Shown: positions 5,563 through 64,000 of the stretch, piece after piece
Position numbering within the stretch: position 1 is the first letter of the stretch
Layout: every line of letters begins with the position of its first letter
NCBI RefSeq assembly: GCF_051622035.1
Contig: NC_135356.1
Coordinates: 32,098,109-32,162,108 of the forward strand
Length of the DNA: 64,000 nt
Source: Arctopsyche grandis
Taxonomy: Eukaryota; Arthropoda; Insecta; Trichoptera; Hydropsychidae
Direction of reading: 5' to 3'
Position numbers and translations under genes: made by a program
Notes under the pieces: generated by a model
Databases searched by the model: none
What the model saw: only the letters and a program-made list of their open reading frames with translations
Told to the model about the DNA's origin: nothing

Positions 5563-6825
5563 TTATTTAATGTTATGGAACTGTTGCCAAACAGTTTTCA
5601 CTTAATTTTAAACTACATTACATTCATAGATTTAATGTTGAATAATATGTTTATGAAGAAAAAAAGAGAATATCAGTTAAACATTGCCATTGTGAATAAG
5701 ATCAGTGATGGAGTTGCGGTCGCCATGCCTCTTATATTATCATTTGTATATGTAATATTTGTATGTAGTTTTTGTCATACTGGGTCATAGTGACACAACA
5801 TTTGTACCAAAACCTTCGCTTGACCACAAATTTATTTCCCAACTACTCACCAAACAAATTCTTTATAATATACATATTATATATTATATTTGTATGAAGA
5901 TTTTGTGGTTAATAGATGTGAACAAATATACCTACGTATATAAAGAGTTGTATTCGTCTGCAAATGGAACTTTAAAGACCTGTACATTTTCCACTAATTA
6001 AATTTACACGTAGGTGTGTACGATTTTTCTTGTTGTATTTATGTATGAATATATACGTGTGTGTATCTCTTATTTATGTGTTTGAGGTAGAGTTCATTCC
6101 ATTTGAAAAACAGCATGAATGATTTTTTTCAAAATATAAAGCAAATTTATTTGGTATGGGTTTGATGGCAATCTACATATATGTTAATTGTAAACATGTA
6201 TAATAATCATGTTTTTACTATAATTTTTGTACATATCTTAAACTGTGTAGTCCACTAGTTTCTTTGGAGCAATCTGGAAGACGATTGTGCATGATTAATT
6301 TAAATAAATAAATAAAAATAAAATTTGCAAAAGAGCGTAACCTATTTAATTTCAAGTAAAAATTGCGTTTGCAATTTACCTTTTATTTGTAATGGGTTTT
6401 GAATTTATATTTTGTAAATGTGATGTGAGTTTGATCGCATTTGTACCTGTGTGTCCAATTTTACTTGATGTTTTACATTTATATTTGTTAATAAAATTGA
6501 ATTTGTCAAAAAAAAAGTACAATTTCGTATTATTTGTAATCTTATGTTTTTCATTATATTTTCACCGTTAATTGTTCAGAAATGATTTTTTGCTTTTATA
6601 AATGTAAATAAAATTGAATTTACAAAAAAATAACACTATCGTATTATTTTCATCCTGATGCTTTTAATTATATCTCTTACAAAGTGTACCCAAAAGTAGA
6701 AGAATATCCATGCAGAATATCCACAGTAGAGTAAGTATAAAATTCTCATTATGCTTCCTTACCAAAATCTCAATTTATGATTATGAATAAGGATTGATTT
6801 ATTTCATCATAATTGACAGGACGCC
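5563..6825. repeat. Shared backbone block B, copy 1
   Basis: Diverged direct repeat of 25525-26784, collinear from TTATTTAATGTTATGGAACT to AATTGACAG. It contains short open frames (such as ELLPNSFHLILNYITFIDLM) conserved between copies, of unknown meaning. Near 6248-6325 it includes TTTGGAGCAATCTG ... ATTAATTTAAATAAATAAA, which matches the 3' end of LINE B (13441 onward), so at least part of the block is an old LINE 3' end. Copy 2 is interrupted exactly at the block's right edge by hAT-3. The right-arm image of copy 1 (62822-64000) is cut by the window edge. Confidence 0.85.
6241..6325 (+). mobile_element. Old LINE 3' end related to LINE B
   Basis: CTTTGGAGCAATCTGGAAGA, then GATTGTGC, then ATTAATTTAAATAAATAAAT matches the 3' terminus of LINE B at 13437-13502, including the (AAAT)n-type tail. 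The 5' half of the stem that LINE B forms here has decayed. Equivalent copies are at 26202-26280 and, inverted, 63322-63406. No reverse-transcriptase coding sequence is attached, so this is a strongly 5'-truncated insertion or tail remnant. Confidence 0.6.
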
Positions 6826-6829
6826 GAAA

Positions 6830-8035
6830 CAAAGTAAACCTTTTACAAAAGTAAAATCTGTTCTTATTTCGATGATCAATCAATCATCGTTAACGTTTCT
6901 TCCTTGTCATTTTCTTCCTAGTGAATGATATTGGAAAAGTGGCAACACTGTTACCACTCAACTGTCAAAATTTATAAAATTACTAAGGAATGCTTGTGAA
7001 ATTGTATTTTCGCCTGTATAATTAAATATATCCAATTGAACCAATTGGACTACAAATTCGTCATAAGGATAGGGAAAATATATTTTAACTAGGGACATAA
7101 TACATACATACACATTCCGGAAGTCACGTCTTGAATGCATGGGCAGGTAAGACAAATCCTAAATTATTTTTTTTTAAATCTTGTTCTCGACGTTAGGATC
7201 TTTTTAATGTTTTCATAAATACTCGTGATAAATCTGCATTAAATAGTTTATACAAATATTAAAATTTTTCGAGTAAAATCATCATTTGAAAATATTATTC
7301 AAAATATCTAACTACATAGGTCTATTATTATAATTATGAAAAAATATTCGTTTAACCGCATTTCTTAAGAGGGTGACTTTTTGATCCTTATTGCTTTAAA
7401 ATGCTTAATGATTCACATGATTGAATCGATTTTGAATGATGATTTGGGTGAACTATCATCAATGTGCACATATTTTCAATGAAGTAATATAAAAGAACAC
7501 TCAATTTACAAAAGCAAAAAACAATAAACTAAGATATTATTATTTAGGTGAGATAGTTTATTGTAGCGAAGATGTAAAAACATATTATCATTAAATAGCA
7601 GCGATATAAACACAACTGCGATTTTGAGATTCATCCGATTACTCTGTGGTCATGTAGAAATGCGATTTCCCGAAGAAGCAGAGCTGATTTTGTACACGGA
7701 AAAGATTAATTAGACAGCCTGGTAATTAAATATAGGTATAAACAATTATTTAATACCAATTAGTGAAAAAATATGATCGCAAATATGCATAAACAATATC
7801 GTGATCTTAAATTTATAGTTGCCGAGAAATTAAAGGCTGATTCAATTCAAACATTTACATTCAAGTCATTACAAGTCATACATTTCATGCAGGAAATACG
7901 TTGACTTACATGTGGTGTATAAATATTGATTGGGTCGATAAGAACAGGACAAGAAAAAATGATTATTGAAATAGTCTCAATAAATTATTCAAATCTTCAT
8001 AGTAAAAATATTTCATTATTTTTAGTGTCGCAATT
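6830..8035. other. AT-rich stretch, no recognisable gene
   Basis: About 1.2 kb of AT-rich sequence with no domain I recognise. A minus-strand open stretch at 6958-7155 (VQLVQLDIFNYTGENTISQA) has a possible TATACAG acceptor inside it, which could mark an exon end, but I cannot name it. The same sequence recurs inverted at 61612-62817. Confidence 0.5.
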
Positions 8036-8037
8036 AA

Positions 8038-9757
8038 TATTTATTTATTTCATAGTTTTGAAGAACCTATTGCGCCACAATGGCCTACATTTGATGATGA
8101 AAAACAGAAAAATAAAAAATAAAATACATAAAATAAAAAGCAAAAATAGAAAAACATGATAAAATGAAAAAATAAAAATAAAAATAATAAATAAGAAAAA
8201 GAATAAGTGTACAAACGTGTAATTATCAAAAATCACATTCTTAGTTTCATATTGAACAAAAGAGAAATAGTACATAAAGAGGAAGAAAAAGAAAAAGTGT
8301 GACGAACGGATTTACGCGCGTCGTGTAGAGGGCGTTATACGTCGTTATTCTTCCAAGAGTCGAGTTATGTAGAAACGTGGACTAACCTTGGGATAGTTAT
8401 ATATATATATATATATATATGTATATAGTCGGGGAGGTTCCTGACTGCAAGTCGTCTGCGTTGATAACAGCTTCCTCGTGCTCGGGAAACTGGCTCTGCG
8501 GTCGTCTTCTCGTTGAAGCACCGCTGGTCGGGTCACAGCAGCGGGAGGGGGGAGGCAGGAGACAAACTCCGTACTGCCTCGTGTGGACACAAGATGGCGA
8601 TCTCTGGGCGTCTCTGAAGACGCTCGGCGGAGATGCTGGAGGTAGGTCTGTCCCGGCTGACGGCTGGATGTAGAGAGAGCTGCTCTCGATACTTCTCGAG
8701 AGGGGTATGGTGTTGGCACGGTAAAGTAACTGGTGCCACCCTAAAGATTACTACCGCTACCAACTGAAGGGACACTCGGGAGAACGTCGCGTTACAAAAG
8801 TAAAATAAAATAAAACAAAATATAAATAAAAATAAAATCACAGCGAGGCTCAAATGAAGAGAGTAGATTAAGATTCCACTCATACATCACATTCAAATTA
8901 AGAAAGTAATGATGAGCTCAGGTCACCAGATAAATATGTTAAAATAATATCCGATAACCTACGCTCACCTAGGTGGAAAATATCGCATTCAGGGACGGCA
9001 GCAACGATTTCATTGAGAAGTCGAATAGCTCTTGGTATAGGAGCCATTCGAAAAATAACTGTGCGGGCAGGAGGTACAGCCATCAAATGATGATGTCTAC
9101 CACACACATAGTTATTAGGGACATAAAGTCCCAACTGCTCCAGCAACAACGGGCATGACGTATTACCACGCAGTAGCTGGAGAACGAAACGAATGAACGA
9201 GAAGTTTCTCCGAAGTTCAAGGGAATTATACCCAAGCGTGCCCAAAAGCAAAGGAGTAGGATAGAGATATGGGTAGTACCCATACTCTTTCTTATATAGA
9301 AAACGAAGAAATGCTTTTTGCACTTTTTCGATAATTAGAGAGTAGTTTGCTTTATGCGGATTCCACACAATCGCATTATACTCTAGCTTACCTCTAACAA
9401 GCGAGTTGAAAAGCAAGCGAGAAGACAAGGGGCTGGAGAATAACCTAGCGTATCTCATGACAAATCCAAGTTGACAAAAAGGAAACGTCAGCGACTGTCT
9501 TGATGTGGTTGTGAAAGGTGAATTGAGGATCAAAAGTGATACCCAAGTCGACCATAGATTCCACACGCGTCAACAACACGGATCCAATGGAATATCCGTG
9601 ATAATAGAGCAAATTCGCACGTCTATAACTCATAATGGCACATTTACTAGTATTCAGTTCAAGCCCTAAACTGGAACTGAACTCTAAAACAGCGTTAATA
9701 TCCGCTTGAAGGAGAGAGGCTTGCCTCTCATCCTTAACAGCAAAGAATAATTTAACA
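8038..9757 (-). mobile_element. LINE A, 3' portion (reverse transcriptase C-terminus and 3' UTR)
   Basis: Minus-strand jockey-like non-LTR retrotransposon. From 9757 leftward it encodes KLFFAVKDERQASLLQADIN, DLGITFDPQFTFHNHI, RGKLEYNAIVWNPHKANYSL and LRFLYKKEYGYYPYLYP, the thumb and C-terminal region of this reverse-transcriptase family. The frame shifts near 9470 (T-run before the GTCAACTTGG segment), so the ORF is broken into 9445-9633 and 8898-9566. A solo LTR (8298-8796) splits the 3' UTR. The end at about 8038 is the terminal (AAAT)n tail preceded by GGCGCAATAGGTTCTTC. It continues upstream at 13503 once LINE B is removed. Confidence 0.85.
8298..8796. mobile_element. Solo LTR, family 1, copy 2 (499 bp), nested in LINE A
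   Basis: TGTGACGAACGGATTTACGC to CGTCGCGTTACA, flanked by the 4-bp duplication AAAG (8294-8297 and 8797-8800). Same family as 5119-5558 but longer, with an extra segment around 8515-8740. It carries a (TA)n microsatellite at 8398-8420. The sequence on either side rejoins as the A-rich 3' UTR of LINE A, so LINE A was in place first. No internal retroelement coding sequence is present. Confidence 0.88.
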
Positions 9758-10399
9758 GTTTTAATAGTTCTTGTGAGCTTTTACAATATGATCTTAATGC
9801 TCTTCATGATTGGTCGTTAACCAACTGCTTGCCTCTTAATGTCTCCAAGTGCAAGGTTATGTGTTACTCCAGATCCAGATCCACCCCCGATCGTACCTTT
9901 CTATATCTTGTTGGTAACTTTTTATTGAACTGGATGGATTCAACTGTTGATCTTGAAGTTGCATTCTAGAGTGACCTAAATTTCTCTGTTCATATCGACT
10001 CTGTGTGTTCCTCTGCCTCACGAATGCTTGGGTTTGTCTTTCGTAATTCTCGACACTACCATAATCCCGCTGTTTTGAGATTGCTGTACAATGCTCTAGT
10101 TAGGAGTATCTTGGAATACGCCTCTATAATCTGGAATCCTTACACTAAGTCTCTATCTGTGAAGCTTGAACTTGCCCAAAGACGATTTCTCAGACTGCTT
10201 TATAAGGAGCAATATGGGATTTACCCATACTTATTTCCATCAAAATTCGTCATGGGTATGGTCGGCTACACTTCTCTTGACCACAGGAGGAGTGTTGCCC
10301 TCATCAAGTTCTCGTTTTCCATATTTAGAGGCTGTATCTCCTGTCCGTCTATCCTGGCTGAGTTGGGCCTTCATGCTCCAGAGAGTGTGGTATGGACCC
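9758..10399 (+). mobile_element. LINE B, 5'-truncated, upstream part
   Basis: Plus-strand copy of a LINE related to LINE A. It encodes LHDWSLTNCLPLNVSKCKVM, then after a stop near 9969 SRMLGFVFRNSRHY, RSILEYASIIWNPYTKSLSV and RFLRLLYKEQYGIYPYLFP, all reverse-transcriptase C-terminal region. It starts abruptly in the middle of the RT, typical of 5' truncation during target-primed reverse transcription. Removing 9758-13502 rejoins LINE A codons across FADYV|KLFF with AACA repeated on both sides (9754-9757 and 13503-13506), the likely target duplication. hAT-1 interrupts it at 10400. Confidence 0.85.
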
Positions 10400-13107
10400 C
10401 AGTGGCGTATATTGGGTGTGTGCTAGGTGTGCGGCGCACACCCGTGAAAACCAAAGACCACATAAAGTAGTATTTTAATACAAAATAATGTGTTGTTGTA
10501 TAAACAGGCATTGATGTGTATGGTGTATTTACCGCGTGCGCTAAATGTATGGTGTATGGTGTGGTGTGCAGTCTGCAGCGTGTTGTGTGATGTTAGATGT
10601 AGTTTGTGCGCCGCGACGAGAGAATACCTATGCCGTGCAGCAAATTGGTGGGTTTGGTTGGAGTGTGCAGGCGGATATTCGCTTGTATAGGTTTGTTCGC
10701 GATATTAAGACGTACGGTGTGCTACGACTTCAGAGCACCGCGCACCGCACCGCACCGCACCGCACCGCACCGCACCACTCGGCAATTGACCGAATGCGAT
10801 GCGACACGTGGTCTCGTACTTTTTCGCACATTCGTATTTTTATGGTCATATCTCAGTCATACCTCTAATAACTAATAATGGCTAACAGTGTTCAAGACAT
10901 TTTAACTATTCCGTTTTCAAATAGAAGTTTTGAGATAAAATTAAAAATAATTAAAGATGGGAAACCGTGTCCGTCTCTTCCAAATTTATCCAGTTTGCAT
11001 AAAGAAAAAACAAAAGTTTACACTAGACATTTTTGCGTTTCAAATTATAAAAAAATCGAATGGATTACAGGCTGTGAAATTCGATCCAAACTTTTCTGCT
11101 GGCCATGTTTATTGTTCTCCAAAGATATTAATGTGTGGAACAAAGAAGGATTTGCTGATCTCAACCATTTGACAGCAGCACTGAAGAAACACGAAGGATC
11201 GCAGGCACACGTTCAATCATTTCTTTCCATACAAATGTTTGGCAAACAACGAATCGACGTATTAATTGACAGTCAACGTAAAGCCGAAATAAGTCGACAT
11301 AATGAACAAGTAAATAAAAATAGAGATGTTTTAAAACGAATTATTAACGCAATAATCTATCTAGGAAAACAAGAACTGTCCCTGCGAGGTCACGACGAGT
11401 CATGTAATTCCGTAAACAAAGGCAATTACATTGAATATCTAAATGCTCTTCGAGAATATGATTCTGTTTTAGATACTCATTTAAATACTGCTACTACCTT
11501 TCGTGGTACTTCTCCAAGTATACAAAATGACATAATCGAAGCAATCGCTCATGTTATTAAAGTTCATATAAAAAATGAAGTAGAGTCAGCAAGTTTTGTT
11601 GCTATTATTCTCGATGAAACTTCAGATATAATGACAAAATCACAGCTCTCAACAGTTTTACGTTTTGTATGTAAAGGCATTGTACATGAACGGTTTATTA
11701 GTTTTACAGACGTTAGTGCTGATAAAACATCTAATGGTCTATTCCGTCACGTGGTGAACATAGTTGAAGAATTTAAAATTCAAGACAAATTGGTTGGACA
11801 GACTTATGATGGAGCAAGTGTAATGAGTGGACACGTAAATGGTTTGCAATCCAAAGTCCTCAATGCTTATCCTTTTGCTCTTTTTACACACTGTTATGCT
11901 CATGTATTGAATTTAGTATTGCAGCAAGGTCTTTCTGATATTAAAGAAAGTAAATCATTTTTTCAAACTTTAAATGGATTGTCTACATACTTTTCAAAAT
12001 CTTCCAAAAGAGTATTCACCCACAAGGTGGAATTTTACATCTCGTTTAAGTAGCACAGTACAACAATACAGAAGTCAATTTACAGATTTTTTTCGACATG
12101 TTATAGAAAATTGTGAATTATGGGACACAGATACTGTTATAAAAGCACGAGGGTTTTTAGGCTTTTTAGAGGATTTTCAAACAATTAAACTTCTTCAATT
12201 TTTTTCAAAACTGTTTGGAATAACTGATGTTTTGTATAACATTCTTCAATCTAAATCTTCGGACGTTTTATATTGTTGTAAAAAAATTAATGATGTTTTG
12301 CAGCAACTGAAATACGAAAGGGATAATAATTTTGAAATGTTATGGAATAATTATTTAAATGAAAAAAATGATGATCATGATCGTAGGCCACAAAGATTAA
12401 AAAATTATTCAGAAGTAGAAGATAAAACTTCATTTCGTCAATTATATTTCAAAATAGTTGATAGCATAATCGCACAAGTCGAATGTAGATATTCTTCACT
12501 TTCCAAATTAGAATATTTTCACCTTCTTTGTAATGATAAATATGACGAATATAAAGAAAATTTTCCAAATGTTTTAATTAATAAATTAAAAGATTTTTAT
12601 GGATCACTGTTTGATTATATTCGATTGAAAAACGAACTCATTGTGCTATATTCCAGCTCTGAATTTTCAGAGAAACCTGTTCATGAATTAATACAATTCA
12701 TGACAAAAAATAACCTCGAATCTGGTTTTAAAGAGGTGTTTAAGCTGGGAGAATTAATATTAACGATACCAAGCAGTACAGCTTCAGCAGAACGTTCTTT
12801 TTCGGCGCTGAAAAGAATAAAAACTTGCTATAGAGGTACGCAAGGTCAAGATAGATTATGTGGCCTTAGCTTAATTTCAATAGAAAAAAAGTTATTGGTG
12901 GAATTAAAACAGAAAGACACATTCTATGCAGACGTGATTGAAAAGTTTATGTCTCAGAAACGTCGCATTGAACTTATGTATAAATAACTAATAAATTAAA
13001 CATTTTTGTAATGCAAAACGAGTATTTTTTTTTAATTGCTAATTTTATACCCTATGCCCTACGGCATACACAGCACACCCGGTATTAACACCCACCGTCC
13101 GCCACTG
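10400..13107 (+). mobile_element. hAT-1 DNA transposon (2,708 bp), nested in LINE B
   Basis: Ends are CAGTGGCGTATATTGGGTGT at the left and, reading inward from the right, CAGTGGCGGACGGTGGGTGT. The terminal 8 bp are identical and the inner part is imperfect. A perfect 8-bp target duplication ATGGACCC flanks it (10392-10399 and 13108-13115), the hallmark of hAT transposition. It encodes a TTF-zinc-finger/ZMYM-like transposase (10878-12987) that is frameshifted. A (CGCAC)n microsatellite lies near 10738-10776, upstream of the coding region. Excising it restores the LINE B reading frame across the junction, which proves the insertion order. Confidence 0.95.
10878..12987 (+). pseudogene. hAT-1 transposase, ZMYM/TTF-type, frameshifted
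   Basis: Two overlapping frames, 10878-12053 and 11974-12987, together span one transposase. The first has an N-terminal TTF-type zinc-finger region (TGCEIRSKLFCWPCLLFSKD followed by HLTAALKKHEGSQAH) and the RNase-H-like core with AIILDETSDIMTKSQLSTVL and VGQTYDGASVMSGHVNGLQ, the D residues of which fit catalytic positions. The second has TRWNFTSRLS and the hAT dimerisation segment ILTIPSSTASAERSFSALKR. The frame changes near SKSSKR/TRWN around 12000-12030, apparently with a short deletion. The lesion is also in the right-arm copy, so it predates the inverted duplication. Position 11680 gives I here and N in the right arm. Confidence 0.88.
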
Positions 13108-13502
13108 ATGGACCCGCCATCGTCCCCTTTTTCACACTCCTTTGGCTAGAACTGTGGCATTTAGTTATTCTCCCATTCCTCGCGGCCTCCGTTTCTTAAA
13201 TTCTCTGGATGGTGCCATTGACATTTGTCATGTCTCTCTTCGTTCTCTGCACCAATTCCTAAGTTATGGAGGTCGCGACCATTTAGAAAGGTTGAGTTAG
13301 TGTTTTTAATTATGATTTTATTATGATTTCATGTTTTATTTAGTTATCCTTTCCTTATTTGATTTGTATATGAAATTTGTTTATTTTACTTGTATTTTTT
13401 ACTATTGTACTTCTTAATATTTTTAGCACACTCGTCGCTTTGGAGCAATCTGTTAGACGAGTGTGCTTGATTAATTGATTTTGTAAAATAAATAAATAAA
13501 TA
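13108..13502 (+). mobile_element. LINE B, 3' part and tail
   Basis: Continuation of LINE B after hAT-1. In the frame that follows from 10399 the first segment encodes FSYSPIPRGLRFLNSLDG and ends at a stop near 13299. The 3' UTR carries an 11-bp perfect stem, GCACACTCGTC (13426-13436) with GACGAGTGTGC (13456-13466), around a loop containing TTTGGAGCAATCTG, and ends in (AAAT)n at 13502. Directly beyond it LINE A resumes on the opposite strand. Confidence 0.85.
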
Positions 13503-13901
13503 AACATAGTCTGCAAACAAGAGACATGAAGCATTGCGTAATACTTTAGGGAGGTTATTAATAACTATAGTAAAAAGTAAAGGGCCTAAGGTGGACCCCT
13601 GAGTTACACCAGATCGCGTAAAATATGAAGGAGATTCATAAATAACATATCTAACAAATTGCTTCCTATCACTAAGATAAGAAGCAAAGAGTTTAAGAAG
13701 ACGTGGAGAAAAGCCCACGTCAGCTAATCTGATCATAAGAACGTCACTATTGACAAGATCAAAGGCTTTACGAAAGTCAAAGTAGGCTACATCAACTTGT
13801 TGACCACCGTCAACTTTAGACATGGTATAATAAGAAAAGCAGGCAATATTAGTGGTAGTGGAACGACATGGTGAAAAACCATGCTGCTCATCACACAACA
13901 A
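13503..13901 (-). mobile_element. LINE A, reverse transcriptase palm segment
   Basis: Minus-strand RT region: EQHGFSPCRSTTTN, VAYFDFRKAFDLVNSDVL, SGVTQGSTLGPLLFTIVINN and LLFADYV. The first catalytic aspartate (AYFDFRKAF) is present. The usual FADD is FADY here, so the second catalytic aspartate of the pair is lost. The frame is interrupted at FADYV by the LINE B insertion and continues at 9757. Upstream it abuts an AT-rich tract at 13905-13985 that replaces several hundred residues between the endonuclease and RT domains. Confidence 0.85.
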
Positions 13902-13904
13902 TCT

Positions 13905-13985
13905 TATTATAAATTTAAATTTAAAGATAAATTTATAAATTTAAAGATTAAAGATAAAATTATAAATTTAAAGATAAATTTATAA
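13905..13985. repeat. AT-rich tandem tract at an internal LINE deletion
   Basis: Irregular repeats of AAATTTAAAGATAAATTTAT. It lies between the endonuclease fragment and the RT fragment of LINE A, where the family normally has several hundred codons, so it marks an internal deletion healed through microhomology-rich sequence. The right-arm image is at 55662-55742. Confidence 0.6.
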
Positions 13986-14483
13986 TTTCTTGATGAATTG
14001 GAGAATTTTCATTCATTTCAAGGTTTTGCCAGTCCAAATTTGGTAGATTAAAATCACCAGTTATTAAGAATTTTGAATCAGGATATTTTAATCTGATTGT
14101 TTCAATATTATTTATAAAATTATTATATACACTAATGTCAGAGGATGGAGGGATGTAAACACAACCGAATATGCACTTTACATTGAAAATTTTGGTTGAT
14201 ATAAATATTTGTTCGATGGAATTGTTTGTGTTGATGATGACAGATGATGAATGAACTTTTTTAATAAGAATTGCCACGCCACCGCCTCGAGTCTTCGTAC
14301 TGGTGTTTATGTTTCTATCATATCTATACATATTGTATGTATGAAAGTTTAGTTCGGAATCATTTATAAGGTTGTGTAGCCACGTTTCTGTTAATAATAT
14401 GATGTCATATGCGGAAGCAGCTATAGCATTTTTAAGGAATTGTATTTTAGATATAATGCTTCTGACATTTTGGTAATATATTG
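13960..14483 (-). mobile_element. LINE A ORF2, apurinic-type endonuclease domain fragment
   Basis: Minus-strand frame beginning right after the ORF1 stop with YYQNVRSI, then LLTETWL, KTRGGGVAILI and FLITGDFNLPNLDW. These are the N-terminal catalytic N, the ETW metal-binding motif and the GDFN motif of the exonuclease/endonuclease/phosphatase fold used by LINEs to nick target DNA. The domain ends prematurely at 13960 with a stop, before the C-terminal SDH motif. The ORF1 to ORF2 spacing is almost zero, as in jockey-like elements. Confidence 0.82.
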
Positions 14484-15128
14484 TTAGTTTTTTGTACTAT
14501 TTTTATTTATTATTTTAGGCACTCCGTTAAAATATTTTATTATTAAGTCACTTTCACCTTTGTCTTTTCTGGTATTCATTTCGTTCCACAAATTGTTTAT
14601 ATGTAGTCTTTGCATGTACGTTAGGTCGTTTTTTATTTTAATTCCTAGTTTGGGTCCTTTTCTAAGTAATGATATTGCTGTTTGCTGTACATCGAGTTTA
14701 ACTTTTAGGGGCCTTGGCTTCGTACCTTGTTTTAATCCGATTCTATGAGCGGTGAATTTGTGGTTAGGTAGCTCGGCTTTTGACAATAAATTTGCGATTA
14801 CATTATTGTCGTCATTATTACCTGTTTCAGTAATGTCAAATATGATAACATTGTTTTTTCTATTTTTTCTTTCTTCCATTTCACTAACAAGTTCCAATGT
14901 CGATTCAATCGTGGTGGGTGTATCTTTAGACATATACATTTTGGTAGCTGACAGCTCTCCTTCCAGCATTGCAATATTACAGGACATTTCGCCTACAGTT
15001 TGCGAGATATCAGAGGTGAAAGGCATCAATTTGGCCATTTGGTCCTTGCTAAATCTATTGACAGGGTCCATGAGGACTTGGACCATACTCTCTAATATTT
15101 TGGAGACACTTTGCACGTACTTGGCCAT
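14484..15128 (-). CDS. LINE A ORF1 protein (214 residues)
   Basis: Minus-strand ORF from ATGGCC at 15128 to TAA at 14484, the one intact LINE A frame. The N-terminal half is helical and likely coiled-coil (SKILESMVQVL, then SEMEERKNRKN). The C-terminal half has an RRM-like pattern: NNVIIFDI, FTAHRIGLKQ, RPLKVKL, then LISLLRKG-type helix spacing and a basic tail. This resembles the RNA-binding ORF1 proteins of insect jockey and L1-like elements, which coat the LINE RNA. No zinc knuckle was seen. It is followed immediately by the endonuclease frame. The 5' UTR probably starts near 15215. Because ORF2 is broken, any product would act only in trans. Confidence 0.75.
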   Translation of the reverse strand: MAKYVQSVSKILESMVQVLMDPVNRFSKDQMAKLMPFTSDISQTVGEMSCNIAMLEGELSATKMYMSKDTPTTIESTLELVSEMEERKNRKNNVIIFDITETGNNDDNNVIANLLSKAELPNHKFTAHRIGLKQGTKPRPLKVKLDVQQTAISLLRKGPKLGIKIKNDLTYMQRLHINNLWNEMNTRKDKGESDLIIKYFNGVPKIINKNSTKN

Positions 15129-15215
15129 TTTATATTTTATTTATTAACAATGAAGAAGTAGCAAAAACACACTTTGGCGACACGACCGAACGCGACAACG
15201 AACACAACAATTATA

Positions 15216-15434
15216 TTAGATATTAAGTGGGTACAATTTTTGACGTGTAAACGTCTTTCCTTTTAGGACCACAGTATAGAGAGTGCATCCTGAGATTTCT
15301 TGGTTCAAAAGGTCTTGTTCGATAGATATTAAAAAATAATTGAATAATTTTTTTAAATGTCTAAATTTTGAAATTGACGGGGACAAATGACTCTCGGACT
15401 GGGACACCGGGACACAGACCTCGAAACTGGGACA
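15216..15434. mobile_element. Remnant of the element that hAT-2 entered, left part
   Basis: Removing hAT-2 joins this stretch to 18129-18172, giving a region with repeated GGGACA and TGTCCC words ending AGGGCTGCCATACGTCC when read on the minus strand. Such ends are common in small non-autonomous DNA transposons, but no matching second terminus was found here, so it may be truncated by LINE A. Function unknown. Confidence 0.45.
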
Positions 15435-18128: not shown

Positions 18129-18180
18129 CTGGGACATGTCCCTGTCAACGCGGACGTATGGCAGCCCTAGTGTACGGGCA
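18129..18180. mobile_element. Remnant of the element that hAT-2 entered, right end
   Basis: Follows the second CTGGGACA and ends TATGGCAGCCCTAG at about 18172, the terminal-inverted-repeat-like end of the host element described at 15216-15434. No coding content. Confidence 0.4.
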
Positions 18181-19210: not shown

Positions 19211-19214
19211 CCTC

Positions 19215-49639: not shown

Positions 49640-49857
49640 AAAACTATAATTTTTGACTAGGGTAACCAGCTTTTTTATACAACTTTTTGAAGAGAAAAAA
49701 ATCTAAAAATATATCCTATGCTATAAACTATGGCAAAATTTAAAATAAAATTGATTTTTTGACGAATAAATTTATTCGCATTTATGAAATTATCAGAGAG
49801 CATTTATGAAATTATGTAGATATGACCGACAATTTCAATACAGTAATTATTTTTATA

Positions 49858-50432: not shown

Positions 50433-50436
50433 GAGG

Positions 50437-51467: not shown

Positions 51468-51518
51468 GCCCGTACACTAGGGCTGCCATACGTCCGCGTT
51501 GACAGGGACATGTCCCAG

Positions 51519-54212
51519 TAGGCTTGGGCATAGTAGTTCGCAAATCAGATCTCTCAGTTTAGTTCGCCGCTCCTAAACGAACTAGTTCGCTCTTCTAGTT
51601 CGTCAGCTCCCAGCTCGAATCAGTGAAAGGCAGATCGTTCGCTCGTTCGTTCGCTCGCAGATCGTTCACTCGCAGATTGTTCGCTCGTTTTGGCTCGATG
51701 AAAGAATAACACATGACGCAAAAAAGAAAACAAAAATAATCAAATTTTTTATATTTTTTTAGAAATAATCAACAATTATATTACTATTAGGTACTGGTTA
51801 GTTCTTGTAAAAAATATCACTTACACTTATAAAGTTGTTACCTAACAATTAAACATAATGACTTGTTTGAGTGAGATCGTATGTATAAAAAAAAAATAAA
51901 ATGGAAAAATAATATTACATATTACTGTGTAAAAATATCAATTTGGACACTTTATTCGATGACAATAGTGTTCTACGTTCATTAAGGACTTGACCCGTCG
52001 CTGAAAAAACGCGTTCGCAGGGCACAGATGTTGCTACGGCACAAAATCTTTTCAAAACATACGCGTAAACGTGAGGGTATATCAAACGACGTTCATGCCA
52101 CCATTGAAGCGGATCTTCTTTACGATTTAGATACTCTTCATTTAGGTATTTATCTAATTCGCGAATGCCAGCAGCAAGCTGGTTATCTGGCCTAGTAATT
52201 TTTTGTATTTCTTGGTCGTATTCATCCCATATGCAGCTATTTTTATTACTAGGTATAGATGTTGATGCGTCGCTGGAAGTAGGAACAGCCTCTGGAGTAC
52301 CCCCTTGAACTAATTGTACTTGGCCGATTTTATTTCTAAGGGCTTGTACTACCATTTCACAGGCTCTTTGATTTTTGAATCCCCTCGTCTTAAATCGAGG
52401 ATCCAAAATCGTACACTCTGCGTATAACATATTCTTCTCTATATCTTTTAAACGATCTTCCATGCCTTTCTTTAGCAGAGACTGCACATCAACTATTTTT
52501 GTATTGTAAGAAACATGTTTTTGTAAAAAATTTGTTAGTAAATTACACAAAATTATTATTTTAGATAAAGTGACGTTTTTCTCGGCACTTATTTCTAAGG
52601 TAATCTCGTAGAATGGACTGAGTAACGGTAAAACTTCCTCTATGACTTCCCAGTCCCCTTCATTTAAAGTTAAATCAGGGCGTAGAAGTGCAACGGTAGC
52701 AATCACTGCATCCTTTACCTGTACTATTCGCTTGAGCATGTCAAAAGTGGAATTCCAGCAGGTTTGTACATCCTGCTTGAGCTTAAGAACAGGCAAATTC
52801 ATTTGCTGCTGCGTAGCAGTCAATTTATGTTTTCCTTGTGTGCTACGAATAAAAAACTCGACAATATTTTTAACTCTTCCCAAAACGTCACATATCTTTT
52901 TCGTAGCTTCTTGTACAACAAGATTTAGAGAGTGAGCGAAACATGAGATGGACCGCCAATCACCAAGTCTAACAGCAGATAAGATATTTGCTGCATTATC
53001 GCTAACAATGGCAGCAACTGTGTGTGAAATGTTCCACTCCGCCATAACAACTTTCATAAAGTCGCACAAGTTTTGACTAGTATGTCGCTCTTTATAATTG
53101 ATACAACCAAGTAATACTGAGTGAAGTTTAGTCTCTTCATTTATAAAATGAGCTACAATAGCTATATAGCTGTCGTTATTTCTAGACGTCCAACCATCAG
53201 TACTAAGAGACAACGCTGGTGCTGCTTGTACCTTTATTTTTGCTTCAGCCATGACGTCATTGTGAATTCTTGACATTAAATTTTCCGATAACGTTTTTCT
53301 TGATGGTAGTTTATAGCCTGGGCATTGAGAAACTAATTCAATAAGTTTACGAAATTCTGTTTCTTCTACGATTCTTAAGGCGTGATGCCCTTTAGCTACC
53401 ATATTGACAAGTTGTTTATCAATTTGCTCAATCTTTGGAACTGGCGGTGGTCTACGAATGTATTGGGTCATCGATTGTTGGGAGTCTACTATATTTGATG
53501 ATGCTGAAATTATATTCTCCGATTCGCATGTGCTTTGACTTGATTGAAGTGAGTTTAAACTAGGTAATATCGGTGTTTGTCTTTCAGCAGTTAATGGGAT
53601 CAAAAGGTGTTTTGTTTTCATATGTCGGGTTAAATTACCATTCGATCCGCCCGCAATACTTATTATTGTTGAACAATGGTTACATTTCGCTTTTTTATTA
53701 TCAATGTCTTCTGTAAAATGAGTCCACAAGGGGCTATGTTTTCTTTTTGATGACATCGTAACAAATACCCTATAACAAAACACATTAACCCTATACGTAA
53801 ACTATTTTTAAAGTATATTAAAGAAATTAATTAATTGTTAATAGTAATTGTTATTATACATTAGAAGCATAAGCTACTTGATAACGACAGTGTCTTATTA
53901 TTTTAAAATTTATTTAACGTTCGGTTAACGTCACTCTCGTTCATTCGGTCACAAACTAATGAAATTCTTGTGTAGTTCGCGAACGAACTGTCTTGTGTAG
54001 TTCGCGAACGAACTAGATCGTAAGAGTGAACAAGACGCGCATGTGCAGTGAGCGAGCGGCAGTATTAGTGTAGTGCCGTCCCACTCTCACTCATTCGGTC
54101 ACGAACTAGTGAACTATGGAACTATGGAACGAGGAGTGAGGGAACTAGTTCGACTAGTTCACCTGTGGGAGCGCTCTTACGACCTAGTTCGTTCGCGAAC
54201 TACACAAGCCTA
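51519..54212 (-). mobile_element. hAT-2 transposon, right arm
   Basis: Mirror of 15435-18128, with the 8-bp duplication TGTCCCAG on each side (51511-51518 and 54213-54220). Terminal and subterminal repeats are the same. Both hAT-2 copies sit at the same place in each arm and carry the same duplication, so the second copy arose by duplication of the arm and not by independent transposition. Confidence 0.95.
51915..53756 (-). CDS. hAT-2 transposase, right-arm copy (614 residues)
   Basis: Minus-strand intact ORF with the start chosen at the ATG before SSKRKHSPLW (53756). Same BED finger, DGW core and dimerisation motif VPCERVFSATGQVLNE; the protein is identical to the left-arm one. Two intact identical transposase genes in opposite orientation could both be expressed if a promoter in the 5' subterminal region is active; no promoter could be defined from sequence. 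Confidence 0.93.
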   Translation of the reverse strand: MSSKRKHSPLWTHFTEDIDNKKAKCNHCSTIISIAGGSNGNLTRHMKTKHLLIPLTAERQTPILPSLNSLQSSQSTCESENIISASSNIVDSQQSMTQYIRRPPPVPKIEQIDKQLVNMVAKGHHALRIVEETEFRKLIELVSQCPGYKLPSRKTLSENLMSRIHNDVMAEAKIKVQAAPALSLSTDGWTSRNNDSYIAIVAHFINEETKLHSVLLGCINYKERHTSQNLCDFMKVVMAEWNISHTVAAIVSDNAANILSAVRLGDWRSISCFAHSLNLVVQEATKKICDVLGRVKNIVEFFIRSTQGKHKLTATQQQMNLPVLKLKQDVQTCWNSTFDMLKRIVQVKDAVIATVALLRPDLTLNEGDWEVIEEVLPLLSPFYEITLEISAEKNVTLSKIIILCNLLTNFLQKHVSYNTKIVDVQSLLKKGMEDRLKDIEKNMLYAECTILDPRFKTRGFKNQRACEMVVQALRNKIGQVQLVQGGTPEAVPTSSDASTSIPSNKNSCIWDEYDQEIQKITRPDNQLAAGIRELDKYLNEEYLNRKEDPLQWWHERRLIYPHVYAYVLKRFCAVATSVPCERVFSATGQVLNERRTLLSSNKVSKLIFLHSNM

Positions 54213-54518
54213 TGTCCCAGTTTCGAGGTCTGTGTCCCGGTGTCCCAGTCCGAGAGTCATTTGTCCCCGTCAATTTCAAAATTTAGACATTTAAAAAAAT
54301 TATTCAATTATTTTTTAATATCTATCGAACAAGACCTTTTGAACCAAGAAATCTCAGGATGCACTCTCTATACTGTGGTCCTAAAAGGAAAGACGTTTAC
54401 ACGTCAAAAATTGTACCCACTTAATATCTAATATAATTGTTGTGTTCGTTGTCGCGTTCGGTCGTGTCGCCAAAGTGTGTTTTTGCTACTTCTTCATTGT
54501 TAATAAATAAAATATAAA

Positions 54519-55163
54519 ATGGCCAAGTACGTGCAAAGTGTCTCCAAAATATTAGAGAGTATGGTCCAAGTCCTCATGGACCCTGTCAATAGATTTAGCA
54601 AGGACCAAATGGCCAAATTGATGCCTTTCACCTCTGATATCTCGCAAACTGTAGGCGAAATGTCCTGTAATATTGCAATGCTGGAAGGAGAGCTGTCAGC
54701 TACCAAAATGTATATGTCTAAAGATACACCCACCACGATTGAATCGACATTGGAACTTGTTAGTGAAATGGAAGAAAGAAAAAATAGAAAAAACAATGTT
54801 ATCATATTTGACATTACTGAAACAGGTAATAATGACGACAATAATGTAATCGCAAATTTATTGTCAAAAGCCGAGCTACCTAACCACAAATTCACCGCTC
54901 ATAGAATCGGATTAAAACAAGGTACGAAGCCAAGGCCCCTAAAAGTTAAACTCGATGTACAGCAAACAGCAATATCATTACTTAGAAAAGGACCCAAACT
55001 AGGAATTAAAATAAAAAACGACCTAACGTACATGCAAAGACTACATATAAACAATTTGTGGAACGAAATGAATACCAGAAAAGACAAAGGTGAAAGTGAC
55101 TTAATAATAAAATATTTTAACGGAGTGCCTAAAATAATAAATAAAAATAGTACAAAAAACTAA
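54519..55163 (+). CDS. LINE A ORF1 protein, right-arm copy
   Basis: Plus-strand mirror of 14484-15128, 214 residues, no difference seen. Followed directly by the endonuclease frame. Confidence 0.75.
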   Translation: MAKYVQSVSKILESMVQVLMDPVNRFSKDQMAKLMPFTSDISQTVGEMSCNIAMLEGELSATKMYMSKDTPTTIESTLELVSEMEERKNRKNNVIIFDITETGNNDDNNVIANLLSKAELPNHKFTAHRIGLKQGTKPRPLKVKLDVQQTAISLLRKGPKLGIKIKNDLTYMQRLHINNLWNEMNTRKDKGESDLIIKYFNGVPKIINKNSTKN

Positions 55164-55687
55164 CAATATATTACCAAAATGTCAGAAGCATTATATCTAA
55201 AATACAATTCCTTAAAAATGCTATAGCTGCTTCCGCATATGACATCATATTATTAACAGAAACGTGGCTACACAACCTTATAAATGATTCCGAACTAAAC
55301 TTTCATACATACAATATGTATAGATATGATAGAAACATAAACACCAGTACGAAGACTCGAGGCGGTGGCGTGGCAATTCTTATTAAAAAAGTTCATTCAT
55401 CATCTGTCATCATCAACACAAACAATTCCATCGAACAAATATTTATATCAACCAAAATTTTCAATGTAAAGTGCATATTCGGTTGTGTTTACATCCCTCC
55501 ATCCTCTGACATTAGTGTATATAATAATTTTATAAATAATATTGAAACAATCAGATTAAAATATCCTGATTCAAAATTCTTAATAACTGGTGATTTTAAT
55601 CTACCAAATTTGGACTGGCAAAACCTTGAAATGAATGAAAATTCTCCAATTCATCAAGAAATTATAAATTTATCTTTAAATTTATAA
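55164..55687 (+). mobile_element. LINE A endonuclease fragment, right arm
   Basis: Plus-strand mirror of 13960-14483 with LLTETWL, RGGGVAILI and ITGDFNLPNL; same premature stop and same AT-rich deletion scar downstream. Confidence 0.82.
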
Positions 55688-55745
55688 TTTTATCTTTAAT
55701 CTTTAAATTTATAAATTTATCTTTAAATTTAAATTTATAATAAGA

Positions 55746-56144
55746 TTGTTGTGTGATGAGCAGCATGGTTTTTCACCATGTCGTTCCACTACCACTAATA
55801 TTGCCTGCTTTTCTTATTATACCATGTCTAAAGTTGACGGTGGTCAACAAGTTGATGTAGCCTACTTTGACTTTCGTAAAGCCTTTGATCTTGTCAATAG
55901 TGACGTTCTTATGATCAGATTAGCTGACGTGGGCTTTTCTCCACGTCTTCTTAAACTCTTTGCTTCTTATCTTAGTGATAGGAAGCAATTTGTTAGATAT
56001 GTTATTTATGAATCTCCTTCATATTTTACGCGATCTGGTGTAACTCAGGGGTCCACCTTAGGCCCTTTACTTTTTACTATAGTTATTAATAACCTCCCTA
56101 AAGTATTACGCAATGCTTCATGTCTCTTGTTTGCAGACTATGTT
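55746..56144 (+). mobile_element. LINE A reverse transcriptase palm segment, right arm
   Basis: Plus-strand mirror of 13503-13901, with FDFRKAFDLVN and the FADY variant of FADD. Interrupted by inverted LINE B at 56145. Confidence 0.85.
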
Positions 56145-56539
56145 TATTTATTTATTTATTTTACAAAATCAATTAATCAAGCACACTCGTCTAACAGATT
56201 GCTCCAAAGCGACGAGTGTGCTAAAAATATTAAGAAGTACAATAGTAAAAAATACAAGTAAAATAAACAAATTTCATATACAAATCAAATAAGGAAAGGA
56301 TAACTAAATAAAACATGAAATCATAATAAAATCATAATTAAAAACACTAACTCAACCTTTCTAAATGGTCGCGACCTCCATAACTTAGGAATTGGTGCAG
56401 AGAACGAAGAGAGACATGACAAATGTCAATGGCACCATCCAGAGAATTTAAGAAACGGAGGCCGCGAGGAATGGGAGAATAACTAAATGCCACAGTTCTA
56501 GCCAAAGGAGTGTGAAAAAGGGGACGATGGCGGGTCCAT
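56145..56539 (-). mobile_element. LINE B 3' part, right arm
   Basis: Mirror of 13108-13502, minus strand, with the GCACACTCGTC stem-loop at 56181-56221 and the (ATTT)n-looking tail next to LINE A. Confidence 0.85.
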
Positions 56540-59247
56540 CAGTGGCGGACGGTGGGTGTTAATACCGGGTGTGCTGTGTATGCCGTAGGGCATAGGGTAT
56601 AAAATTAGCAATTAAAAAAAAATACTCGTTTTGCATTACAAAAATGTTTAATTTATTAGTTATTTATACATAAGTTCAATGCGACGTTTCTGAGACATAA
56701 ACTTTTCAATCACGTCTGCATAGAATGTGTCTTTCTGTTTTAATTCCACCAATAACTTTTTTTCTATTGAAATTAAGCTAAGGCCACATAATCTATCTTG
56801 ACCTTGCGTACCTCTATAGCAAGTTTTTATTCTTTTCAGCGCCGAAAAAGAACGTTCTGCTGAAGCTGTACTGCTTGGTATCGTTAATATTAATTCTCCC
56901 AGCTTAAACACCTCTTTAAAACCAGATTCGAGGTTATTTTTTGTCATGAATTGTATTAATTCATGAACAGGTTTCTCTGAAAATTCAGAGCTGGAATATA
57001 GCACAATGAGTTCGTTTTTCAATCGAATATAATCAAACAGTGATCCATAAAAATCTTTTAATTTATTAATTAAAACATTTGGAAAATTTTCTTTATATTC
57101 GTCATATTTATCATTACAAAGAAGGTGAAAATATTCTAATTTGGAAAGTGAAGAATATCTACATTCGACTTGTGCGATTATGCTATCAACTATTTTGAAA
57201 TATAATTGACGAAATGAAGTTTTATCTTCTACTTCTGAATAATTTTTTAATCTTTGTGGCCTACGATCATGATCATCATTTTTTTCATTTAAATAATTAT
57301 TCCATAACATTTCAAAATTATTATCCCTTTCGTATTTCAGTTGCTGCAAAACATCATTAATTTTTTTACAACAATATAAAACGTCCGAAGATTTAGATTG
57401 AAGAATGTTATACAAAACATCAGTTATTCCAAACAGTTTTGAAAAAAATTGAAGAAGTTTAATTGTTTGAAAATCCTCTAAAAAGCCTAAAAACCCTCGT
57501 GCTTTTATAACAGTATCTGTGTCCCATAATTCACAATTTTCTATAACATGTCGAAAAAAATCTGTAAATTGACTTCTGTATTGTTGTACTGTGCTACTTA
57601 AACGAGATGTAAAATTCCACCTTGTGGGTGAATACTCTTTTGGAAGATTTTGAAAAGTATGTAGACAATCCATTTAAAGTTTGAAAAAATGATTTACTTT
57701 CTTTAATATCAGAAAGACCTTGCTGCAATACTAAATTCAATACATGAGCATAACAGTGTGTAAAAAGAGCAAAAGGATAAGCATTGAGGACTTTGGATTG
57801 CAAACCATTTACGTGTCCACTCATTACACTTGCTCCATCATAAGTCTGTCCAACCAATTTGTCTTGAATTTTAAATTCTTCAACTATGTTCACCACGTGA
57901 CGGAATAGACCATTAGATGTTTTATCAGCACTAACGTCTGTAAAACTAATAAACCGTTCATGTACATTGCCTTTACATACAAAACGTAAAACTGTTGAGA
58001 GCTGTGATTTTGTCATTATATCTGAAGTTTCATCGAGAATAATAGCAACAAAACTTGCTGACTCTACTTCATTTTTTATATGAACTTTAATAACATGAGC
58101 GATTGCTTCGATTATGTCATTTTGTATACTTGGAGAAGTACCACGAAAGGTAGTAGCAGTATTTAAATGAGTATCTAAAACAGAATCATATTCTCGAAGA
58201 GCATTTAGATATTCAATGTAATTGCCTTTGTTTACGGAATTACATGACTCGTCGTGACCTCGCAGGGACAGTTCTTGTTTTCCTAGATAGATTATTGCGT
58301 TAATAATTCGTTTTAAAACATCTCTATTTTTATTTACTTGTTCATTATGTCGACTTATTTCGGCTTTACGTTGACTGTCAATTAATACGTCGATTCGTTG
58401 TTTGCCAAACATTTGTATGGAAAGAAATGATTGAACGTGTGCCTGCGATCCTTCGTGTTTCTTCAGTGCTGCTGTCAAATGGTTGAGATCAGCAAATCCT
58501 TCTTTGTTCCACACATTAATATCTTTGGAGAACAATAAACATGGCCAGCAGAAAAGTTTGGATCGAATTTCACAGCCTGTAATCCATTCGATTTTTTTAT
58601 AATTTGAAACGCAAAAATGTCTAGTGTAAACTTTTGTTTTTTCTTTATGCAAACTGGATAAATTTGGAAGAGACGGACACGGTTTCCCATCTTTAATTAT
58701 TTTTAATTTTATCTCAAAACTTCTATTTGAAAACGGAATAGTTAAAATGTCTTGAACACTGTTAGCCATTATTAGTTATTAGAGGTATGACTGAGATATG
58801 ACCATAAAAATACGAATGTGCGAAAAAGTACGAGACCACGTGTCGCATCGCATTCGGTCAATTGCCGAGTGGTGCGGTGCGGTGCGGTGCGGTGCGGTGC
58901 GGTGCGCGGTGCTCTGAAGTCGTAGCACACCGTACGTCTTAATATCGCGAACAAACCTATACAAGCGAATATCCGCCTGCACACTCCAACCAAACCCACC
59001 AATTTGCTGCACGGCATAGGTATTCTCTCGTCGCGGCGCACAAACTACATCTAACATCACACAACACGCTGCAGACTGCACACCACACCATACACCATAC
59101 ATTTAGCGCACGCGGTAAATACACCATACACATCAATGCCTGTTTATACAACAACACATTATTTTGTATTAAAATACTACTTTATGTGGTCTTTGGTTTT
59201 CACGGGTGTGCGCCGCACACCTAGCACACACCCAATATACGCCACTG
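56540..59247 (-). mobile_element. hAT-1 transposon, right arm
   Basis: Mirror of 10400-13107, with GGGTCCAT duplications at 56532-56539 and 59248-59255. Same terminal repeats and (GTGCG)n microsatellite. Confidence 0.95.
56660..58769 (-). pseudogene. hAT-1 transposase, frameshifted, right arm
   Basis: Mirror of 10878-12987. Same frameshift between 57594 and 57673. Position 57967 makes an asparagine codon (CKGNVHERF) where the left arm has isoleucine (CKGIVHERF). Confidence 0.88.
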
Positions 59248-59889
59248 GGGTCCATACCACACTCTCTGGAGCATGAAGGCCCAACTCAGCCAGGATAGAC
59301 GGACAGGAGATACAGCCTCTAAATATGGAAAACGAGAACTTGATGAGGGCAACACTCCTCCTGTGGTCAAGAGAAGTGTAGCCGACCATACCCATGACGA
59401 ATTTTGATGGAAATAAGTATGGGTAAATCCCATATTGCTCCTTATAAAGCAGTCTGAGAAATCGTCTTTGGGCAAGTTCAAGCTTCACAGATAGAGACTT
59501 AGTGTAAGGATTCCAGATTATAGAGGCGTATTCCAAGATACTCCTAACTAGAGCATTGTACAGCAATCTCAAAACAGCGGGATTATGGTAGTGTCGAGAA
59601 TTACGAAAGACAAACCCAAGCATTCGTGAGGCAGAGGAACACACAGAGTCGATATGAACAGAGAAATTTAGGTCACTCTAGAATGCAACTTCAAGATCAA
59701 CAGTTGAATCCATCCAGTTCAATAAAAAGTTACCAACAAGATATAGAAAGGTACGATCGGGGGTGGATCTGGATCTGGAGTAACACATAACCTTGCACTT
59801 GGAGACATTAAGAGGCAAGCAGTTGGTTAACGACCAATCATGAAGAGCATTAAGATCATATTGTAAAAGCTCACAAGAACTATTAAAAC
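59248..59889 (-). mobile_element. LINE B upstream part, right arm
   Basis: Mirror of 9758-10399, minus strand, with LEYASIIWNPYTKSLSV and LLYKEQYGIYPYLFP. Confidence 0.85.
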
Positions 59890-61609
59890 TGTTAAATTAT
59901 TCTTTGCTGTTAAGGATGAGAGGCAAGCCTCTCTCCTTCAAGCGGATATTAACGCTGTTTTAGAGTTCAGTTCCAGTTTAGGGCTTGAACTGAATACTAG
60001 TAAATGTGCCATTATGAGTTATAGACGTGCGAATTTGCTCTATTATCACGGATATTCCATTGGATCCGTGTTGTTGACGCGTGTGGAATCTATGGTCGAC
60101 TTGGGTATCACTTTTGATCCTCAATTCACCTTTCACAACCACATCAAGACAGTCGCTGACGTTTCCTTTTTGTCAACTTGGATTTGTCATGAGATACGCT
60201 AGGTTATTCTCCAGCCCCTTGTCTTCTCGCTTGCTTTTCAACTCGCTTGTTAGAGGTAAGCTAGAGTATAATGCGATTGTGTGGAATCCGCATAAAGCAA
60301 ACTACTCTCTAATTATCGAAAAAGTGCAAAAAGCATTTCTTCGTTTTCTATATAAGAAAGAGTATGGGTACTACCCATATCTCTATCCTACTCCTTTGCT
60401 TTTGGGCACGCTTGGGTATAATTCCCTTGAACTTCGGAGAAACTTCTCGTTCATTCGTTTCGTTCTCCAGCTACTGCGTGGTAATACGTCATGCCCGTTG
60501 TTGCTGGAGCAGTTGGGACTTTATGTCCCTAATAACTATGTGTGTGGTAGACATCATCATTTGATGGCTGTACCTCCTGCCCGCACAGTTATTTTTCGAA
60601 TGGCTCCTATACCAAGAGCTATTCGACTTCTCAATGAAATCGTTGCTGCCGTCCCTGAATGCGATATTTTCCACCTAGGTGAGCGTAGGTTATCGGATAT
60701 TATTTTAACATATTTATCTGGTGACCTGAGCTCATCATTACTTTCTTAATTTGAATGTGATGTATGAGTGGAATCTTAATCTACTCTCTTCATTTGAGCC
60801 TCGCTGTGATTTTATTTTTATTTATATTTTGTTTTATTTTATTTTACTTTTGTAACGCGACGTTCTCCCGAGTGTCCCTTCAGTTGGTAGCGGTAGTAAT
60901 CTTTAGGGTGGCACCAGTTACTTTACCGTGCCAACACCATACCCCTCTCGAGAAGTATCGAGAGCAGCTCTCTCTACATCCAGCCGTCAGCCGGGACAGA
61001 CCTACCTCCAGCATCTCCGCCGAGCGTCTTCAGAGACGCCCAGAGATCGCCATCTTGTGTCCACACGAGGCAGTACGGAGTTTGTCTCCTGCCTCCCCCC
61101 TCCCGCTGCTGTGACCCGACCAGCGGTGCTTCAACGAGAAGACGACCGCAGAGCCAGTTTCCCGAGCACGAGGAAGCTGTTATCAACGCAGACGACTTGC
61201 AGTCAGGAACCTCCCCGACTATATACATATATATATATATATATATATAACTATCCCAAGGTTAGTCCACGTTTCTACATAACTCGACTCTTGGAAGAAT
61301 AACGACGTATAACGCCCTCTACACGACGCGCGTAAATCCGTTCGTCACACTTTTTCTTTTTCTTCCTCTTTATGTACTATTTCTCTTTTGTTCAATATGA
61401 AACTAAGAATGTGATTTTTGATAATTACACGTTTGTACACTTATTCTTTTTCTTATTTATTATTTTTATTTTTATTTTTTCATTTTATCATGTTTTTCTA
61501 TTTTTGCTTTTTATTTTATGTATTTTATTTTTTATTTTTCTGTTTTTCATCATCAAATGTAGGCCATTGTGGCGCAATAGGTTCTTCAAAACTATGAAAT
61601 AAATAAATA
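59890..61609 (+). mobile_element. LINE A 3' portion, right arm
   Basis: Mirror of 8038-9757, plus strand; broken RT C-terminal frames at 60014-60202 and 60081-60749; tail (AAAT)n ends near 61609. Confidence 0.85.
60851..61349. mobile_element. Solo LTR family 1, right arm
   Basis: Mirror of 8298-8796 with CTTT on both sides (60847-60850 and 61350-61353). The (TA)n tract has the same length as in the left arm. Confidence 0.88.
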
Positions 61610-61611
61610 TT

Positions 61612-62817
61612 AATTGCGACACTAAAAATAATGAAATATTTTTACTATGAAGATTTGAATAATTTATTGAGACTATTTCAATAATCATTTTTTCTTGTCC
61701 TGTTCTTATCGACCCAATCAATATTTATACACCACATGTAAGTCAACGTATTTCCTGCATGAAATGTATGACTTGTAATGACTTGAATGTAAATGTTTGA
61801 ATTGAATCAGCCTTTAATTTCTCGGCAACTATAAATTTAAGATCACGATATTGTTTATGCATATTTGCGATCATATTTTTTCACTAATTGGTATTAAATA
61901 ATTGTTTATACCTATATTTAATTACCAGGCTGTCTAATTAATCTTTTCCGTGTACAAAATCAGCTCTGCTTCTTCGGGAAATCGCATTTCTACATGACCA
62001 CAGAGTAATCGGATGAATCTCAAAATCGCAGTTGTGTTTATATCGCTGCTATTTAATGATAATATGTTTTTACATCTTCGCTACAATAAACTATCTCACC
62101 TAAATAATAATATCTTAGTTTATTGTTTTTTGCTTTTGTAAATTGAGTGTTCTTTTATATTACTTCATTGAAAATATGTGCACATTGATGATAGTTCACC
62201 CAAATCATCATTCAAAATCGATTCAATCATGTGAATCATTAAGCATTTTAAAGCAATAAGGATCAAAAAGTCACCCTCTTAAGAAATGCGGTTAAACGAA
62301 TATTTTTTCATAATTATAATAATAGACCTATGTAGTTAGATATTTTGAATAATATTTTCAAATGATGATTTTACTCGAAAAATTTTAATATTTGTATAAA
62401 CTATTTAATGCAGATTTATCACGAGTATTTATGAAAACATTAAAAAGATCCTAACGTCGAGAACAAGATTTAAAAAAAAATAATTTAGGATTTGTCTTAC
62501 CTGCCCATGCATTCAAGACGTGACTTCCGGAATGTGTATGTATGTATTATGTCCCTAGTTAAAATATATTTTCCCTATCCTTATGACGAATTTGTAGTCC
62601 AATTGGTTCAATTGGATATATTTAATTATACAGGCGAAAATACAATTTCACAAGCATTCCTTAGTAATTTTATAAATTTTGACAGTTGAGTGGTAACAGT
62701 GTTGCCACTTTTCCAATATCATTCACTAGGAAGAAAATGACAAGGAAGAAACGTTAACGATGATTGATTGATCATCGAAATAAGAACAGATTTTACTTTT
62801 GTAAAAGGTTTACTTTG
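61612..62817. other. AT-rich stretch, no recognisable gene, right arm
   Basis: Mirror of 6830-8035; the open stretch with VQLVQLDIFNYTGENTISQA is on the plus strand at 62492-62689. Confidence 0.5.
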
Positions 62818-62821
62818 TTTC

Positions 62822-64000
62822 GGCGTCCTGTCAATTATGATGAAATAAATCAATCCTTATTCATAATCATAAATTGAGATTTTGGTAAGGAAGCATAATG
62901 AGAATTTTATACTTACTCTACTGTGGATATTCTGCATGGATATTCTTCTACTTTTGGGTACACTTTGTAAGAGATATAATTAAAAGCATCAGGATGAAAA
63001 TAATACGATAGTGTTATTTTTTTGTAAATTCAATTTTATTTACATTTATAAAAGCAAAAAATCATTTCTGAACAATTAACGGTGAAAATATAATGAAAAA
63101 CATAAGATTACAAATAATACGAAATTGTACTTTTTTTTTGACAAATTCAATTTTATTAACAAATATAAATGTAAAACATCAAGTAAAATTGGACACACAG
63201 GTACAAATGCGATCAAACTCACATCACATTTACAAAATATAAATTCAAAACCCATTACAAATAAAATGTAAATTGCAAACGCAATTTTTACTTGAAATTA
63301 AATAGGTTACGCTCTTTTGCAAATTTTATTTTTATTTATTTATTTAAATTAATCATGCACAATCGTCTTCCAGATTGCTCCAAAGAAACTAGTGGACTAC
63401 ACAGTTTAAGATATGTACAAAAATTATAGTAAAAACATGATTATTATACATGTTTACAATTAACATATATGTAGATTGCCATCAAACCCATACCAAATAA
63501 ATTTGCTTTATATTTTGAAAAAAATCATTCATGCTGTTTTTCAAATGGAATGAACTCTACCTCAAACACATAAATAAGAGATACACACACGTATATATTC
63601 ATACATAAATACAACAAGAAAAATCGTACACACCTACGTGTAAATTTAATTAGTGGAAAATGTACAGGTCTTTAAAGTTCCATTTGCAGACGAATACAAC
63701 TCTTTATATACGTAGGTATATTTGTTCACATCTATTAACCACAAAATCTTCATACAAATATAATATATAATATGTATATTATAAAGAATTTGTTTGGTGA
63801 GTAGTTGGGAAATAAATTTGTGGTCAAGCGAAGGTTTTGGTACAAATGTTGTGTCACTATGACCCAGTATGACAAAAACTACATACAAATATTACATATA
63901 CAAATGATAATATAAGAGGCATGGCGACCGCAACTCCATCACTGATCTTATTCACAATGGCAATGTTTAACTGATATTCTCTTTTTTTCTTCATAAACAT
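62822..64000. repeat. Shared backbone block B, copy 1, right arm, cut by window edge
   Basis: Mirror of 5647-6825. It continues the inverted repeat to the last base, so the solo LTR at 5119-5558 and the MED13/MRI1/OGT fragments may also have an image beyond 64000. That cannot be judged from this window. Confidence 0.85.

Follow-up and report, generated by a model that had tools for sequence, protein, structure and literature searches.

How do the arms of a giant palindrome come to be nearly free of differences when they are filled with transposons and repeats? This question is raised by a 64,000-nucleotide stretch of the caddisfly Arctopsyche grandis genome (C2:32098109-32162108; hereafter, the window), in an assembly of 475,669,232 bases in 189 contigs; a prior assembly of the species is listed at 485.66 Mb (PMC12576367). 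The original prediction described a single palindrome whose arms were either extremely recent duplicates or kept identical by gene conversion. That palindrome is real, but the description was too small, as the window holds one of many copies. We consider it quite probable that the window is one unit of a recent palindrome array of ~3.7 Mb, located ~5 Mb from the contig end on the probable Z chromosome and produced by copying and exchange. In this account, a patchwork of transposons and MED13, OGT, GID4, and MTRI pieces would first have become an inverted duplication. Units including whole palindromes would then have multiplied on that chromosome in either orientation, through rounds of duplication and through exchange between copies that had misaligned. 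The near-identity of the copies would then reflect recent copying and array-wide turnover, and an array that is recent and still changing is the best account of the data.

The palindrome and its copies

Alignment of window positions 5647-29791 to the reverse complement of 39856-64000 was ungapped over 24,145 positions, with left-arm position x mirrored at 69647-x as predicted. Four differences were present (left-arm positions 6380, 11680, 23682, and 28785) rather than the three reported by eye, and a match of this kind makes a chance model superfluous. Identity ends at the proposed inner junctions (29791/29792 and 39855/39856). The minimum arm length of 24,145 bp reflects where the window stops: in sequence extended by 40 kb in both directions, the mirror continues past both sides and reaches window position -4244 ungapped with two further differences. 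In a BLAST comparison of the window and flanks, the inner mirror block is 34,121 bp long and contains 8 mismatches and 2 gaps. Beyond it, collinear mirror blocks of 97.5-99.7% identity extend to -31264 and 83775, interrupted by one-sided insertions, the biggest being ~15 kb in the left arm. Because the outer blocks carry such insertions, the claim that no indel exists at all applies only to the inner part, including the 24,145-bp arms. The locus thus displays the two long inverted arms, >99% identity, and intervening spacer of a large inverted-repeat palindrome. Separately, a 3463-bp arm piece (52077-55539 and 14108-17570) is repeated at 99.97% identity in the left 15-kb insertion (-18114 to -14652); therefore, pieces move within the array too.

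A 3-kb query spanning the inner junction of the left arm matched at least 35 places at 98% identity or more covering at least 1.2 kb, with at least 33 on C2 (30.997-34.339 Mb) and at least 2 on contig C162; these are lower bounds, as 40 of 470 candidates were scored. When neighboring copies in plus-then-minus order within 15 kb were counted as a palindrome, at least ten were recovered: nine on C2 and a tenth on C162, a separate 168-kb contig. Under this rule, 15 of the 33 C2 copies had no partner. Window positions 1-5646 recur in at least six full-length copies at 100% identity (rounded; the window's own two arms included) and at least one 5.6-kb copy at 99%, with 39 of 1797 candidates scored. 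Pieces of OGT occupy at least 66 separate places on C2 between 30.80 and 34.46 Mb, 29 on the plus strand and 37 on the minus strand (80 of 122 candidates scored). Many near-identical large copies are therefore clustered on one chromosome, as in an ampliconic region. In a 20-kb sample at the left end, array matches run from ~30.789 Mb onward, preceded by scattered ones, and the left edge of the array may lie there. The 20-kb sample at 34.37-34.39 Mb matched the array over its whole length, and the right edge was not reached within it.

The window's spacer is unique relative to the arms, short pieces excepted, and other palindromes share its left part: the entire 6-kb overlap is found in three of seven other loci and part of it in the remaining four. 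Relative to this spacer, that of palindrome D contains an internal jump of ~5 kb, and in palindrome G a right-end part comes, in reverse order, after the arm plus 187 bp from the left edge.

The captured MED13 piece provides a second view of the copies. Compared with its parent on C7, the piece has sharp ends at both sides of 788 bp, and at least ten array copies share this identical extent, with one common pair of end points and 99.1-99.2% identity to the parent. Three copies checked base by base have 6 substitutions relative to the parent in common. Frame changes, which we read as introns, divide the coding stretches of the parent; since the piece retains these changes, MED13 was probably copied from DNA.

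Relations among arms and rival explanations

Both inner arms of the ten palindromes (20 arms, from 18 loci plus the window) were aligned over window positions 25429-29791 (4.4 kb). Partner arms differ by 1 (palindrome A), 11 (B), 18 (C), 38 (D), 42 (E), 8 (F), 0 (G), 3 (H), 4 (I), and 3 (J) substitutions, and arms of different palindromes by 0 to 45 (mean 18.7). The partner mean of 12.8 compares with 18.2 under random pairing (P = 0.04 from 20,000 shuffles, a value that is only rough because the shuffles ignore the relatedness of the arms). The own partner was nearest or joint nearest in just 7 of the 20 arms. Palindromes H and I, 1.75 Mb apart, match crosswise, and palindrome E joins an A-like arm to a D-like arm, which is consistent with large units being copied and exchanged throughout the array.

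Chromosomal context was assessed with three Z markers, two of which (per and Pgd) are located on C2. Given also that caddisflies are regarded as lacking a W, C2 is probably the Z chromosome, and a W or Y is not favored. Marker location suggests, indirectly, that C2 is not the sex-limited, non-recombining type that carries Y-type palindromes. During this search, full-length, intron-free TIM and 6PGD frames of bacterial appearance were seen on the small contigs C55, C84, and C122; the assembly may therefore hold contaminant or symbiont contigs.

Several observations weigh against a recent, exchanging array on the Z. Tpi, which is also Z-linked in silkworm, is located on C3. Partner arms are weakly closer than random pairs and are nearly identical in the window's own pair (1 substitution) and pair G, so some arm-to-arm conversion may occur. 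Array pieces on the unplaced contigs C121 and C162 make clear that the assembly does not fully resolve the array. Finally, the MTRI fragment is open over 130 amino acids in 14 of 14 copies, which would fit a working product as well. The same arm-pair observations would also be expected if the palindromes were older and gene conversion within each one kept its arms identical, in the style of the human Y. Such conversion is an unlikely main cause, however, given the divergence of partners in C, D, and E, the arms of different palindromes that differ by as few as 0 substitutions, and the minority of arms for which the partner is nearest. Of the two options originally offered, recent copying with array-wide turnover is thus favored, and, as part of the same quite probable account, conversion within a palindrome, from one arm to the other, would contribute little.

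It is similarly improbable that the inverted copies, or their number, are an assembly construct arising from mis-joined repeats or unresolved haplotypes. The stray pieces on small contigs and the near-identity of many copies are compatible with such an error, and the evidence presented here is that of the assembly; however, the ten palindromes differ in variants, indels, and spacer forms, one sits on its own contig, and insertions occur on one arm side only. A functional array is the remaining alternative, in which conflict-driven, Z-linked amplification would yield inverted gene fragments producing small RNAs against their parent genes, by analogy to Drosophila hairpin RNAs and the Dox family. 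Inverted copies on what is probably a sex chromosome do contain host-gene fragments, and small RNAs could match the MED13 parent gene, to which the captured piece is 99.1% identical. Although a small-RNA or genetic-conflict role is thus possible, we regard this scenario as distinctly unlikely: no shared pathway is evident for MED13, OGT, GID4, and MTRI, a spacer of 10 kb appears long for a hairpin transcript, and the MED13-GID4-MTRI stretch is at full length in only part of the copies. We infer that the recent array consists mainly of non-coding or selfish sequence and is not a source of working proteins.

The mutation rate in butterflies is ~3 × 10⁻⁹ per site and generation. If no conversion occurred and polymorphism is ignored, 8 mismatches in 34.1 kb would roughly place the two arms as one sequence ~40,000 generations ago, and the 0.8-0.9% divergence of MED13 would place its capture ~1.3-1.5 million generations ago.

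Comparison with known systems

On the human Y, which is male-specific, eight palindromes are described, and the identity of their arms is attributed to gene conversion (PMC3723533, PMC3308322). The window's palindrome shares the large inverted repeats around a spacer, with arms >99.9% identical, but here at least ten palindromes lie on a probable Z, partner arms are often not closest, and broken gene pieces replace testis gene families. Mammalian X palindromes likewise reside on a sex chromosome paired in one sex, although each usually holds one gene family rather than several gene fragments and transposons (PMC3308322). Drosophila Dox genes and hairpin RNAs also involve gene pieces that were captured and then amplified, in inverted copies, on a sex chromosome; the units here are far larger and are described at the DNA level. 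The chicken Z amplicon and the mouse HSR and R2d2 arrays likewise are large arrays made up of recent, nearly identical units, and the chicken example is Z-linked; they differ in being mainly tandem and in containing transcribed genes. No insect palindrome array was recognized from titles and abstract beginnings, a coverage that misses most subscription papers, so absence from print does not follow.

Gene fragments, transposons, and repeats

Pfam scans, in which stops were written as X, covered window positions 1-10 kb and 20-30 kb on both strands, 10-20 kb on the minus strand, and locus L013 on both strands. The possibility that the arm carries a complete host gene was considered and rejected, as host-gene matches in these stretches were fragments (MED13, GID4, MTRI, and OGT), accompanied by retrotransposon domains; one kinase match and further weak matches fell under their cut-offs. 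Feature coordinates are collected below.

Features of the window and its immediate flank (window coordinates)
Feature	Position	Strand	Remarks
Left arm within window	1..29791	+	Continues to -4329 at 99.97%, then broken blocks to -31264
Right arm within window	39856..64000	-	Continues to 73972
Spacer	29792..39855		10,064 bp; left part common to other palindromes
OGT (O-GlcNAc transferase) fragment	-230..268 (window part 1..268)	-	In-frame stops
MED13 fragment	1395..2182	-	788 bp; 99.1% to C7:18944842-18945629; parent's frame breaks retained
GID4 (Vac_ImportDeg) fragment	2463..2690	-	Pfam scan
MTRI (methylthioribose-1-phosphate isomerase) fragment	4370..4741	-	Within 130-amino-acid open frame 4364-4753
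Broken non-LTR (long terminal repeat) retrotransposon	13458..15128	-	Endonuclease and reverse transcriptase domains
Second OGT fragment	21523..21897	-	Intron-free, in-frame stops; mirror copy 47750-48124 (+)

The OGT pieces contain in-frame stops and run without gaps across the points at which the gene at C2:24.23 Mb is split, suggesting that they derive from a processed copy that has since decayed. Apart from that split gene, a single open frame of 1031 amino acids at C12:10281156-10282754 contains the entire OGT catalytic domain and is possibly a retrogene. The sole protein match of the MED13 frame at 1878-2273 was LOC143921205 of Arctopsyche grandis, aligned at 98% identity across 37% of the frame. 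Further GID4 pieces occur left of the window, and a genome search for the MTRI parent gave no comparable match outside the array copies.

The open reading frame at 14484-15128, adjoining the endonuclease and reverse transcriptase domains, presumably has a role in the non-LTR retrotransposon, and we take other frames in the arm and spacer to be hAT-like and BEL/Pao-like. No tRNA or known RNA family (at gathering scores) was found within the window. A tandem repeat at 20066-20876 (mirror 48771-49581) has a 214-bp unit in ~3 copies and a related 138-bp period; its plus-strand frames repeat an exon-like stretch of ~45 amino acids, with no credible PDB match for the repeat. GC-rich tandem arrays flank the window on the left (approximately -20.7 to -18.4 kb; periods of ~72, 90, and 450 bp), within the one-sided 15-kb insertion, and on the right (~96.8-98.5 kb; periods of 72 and 15 bp).
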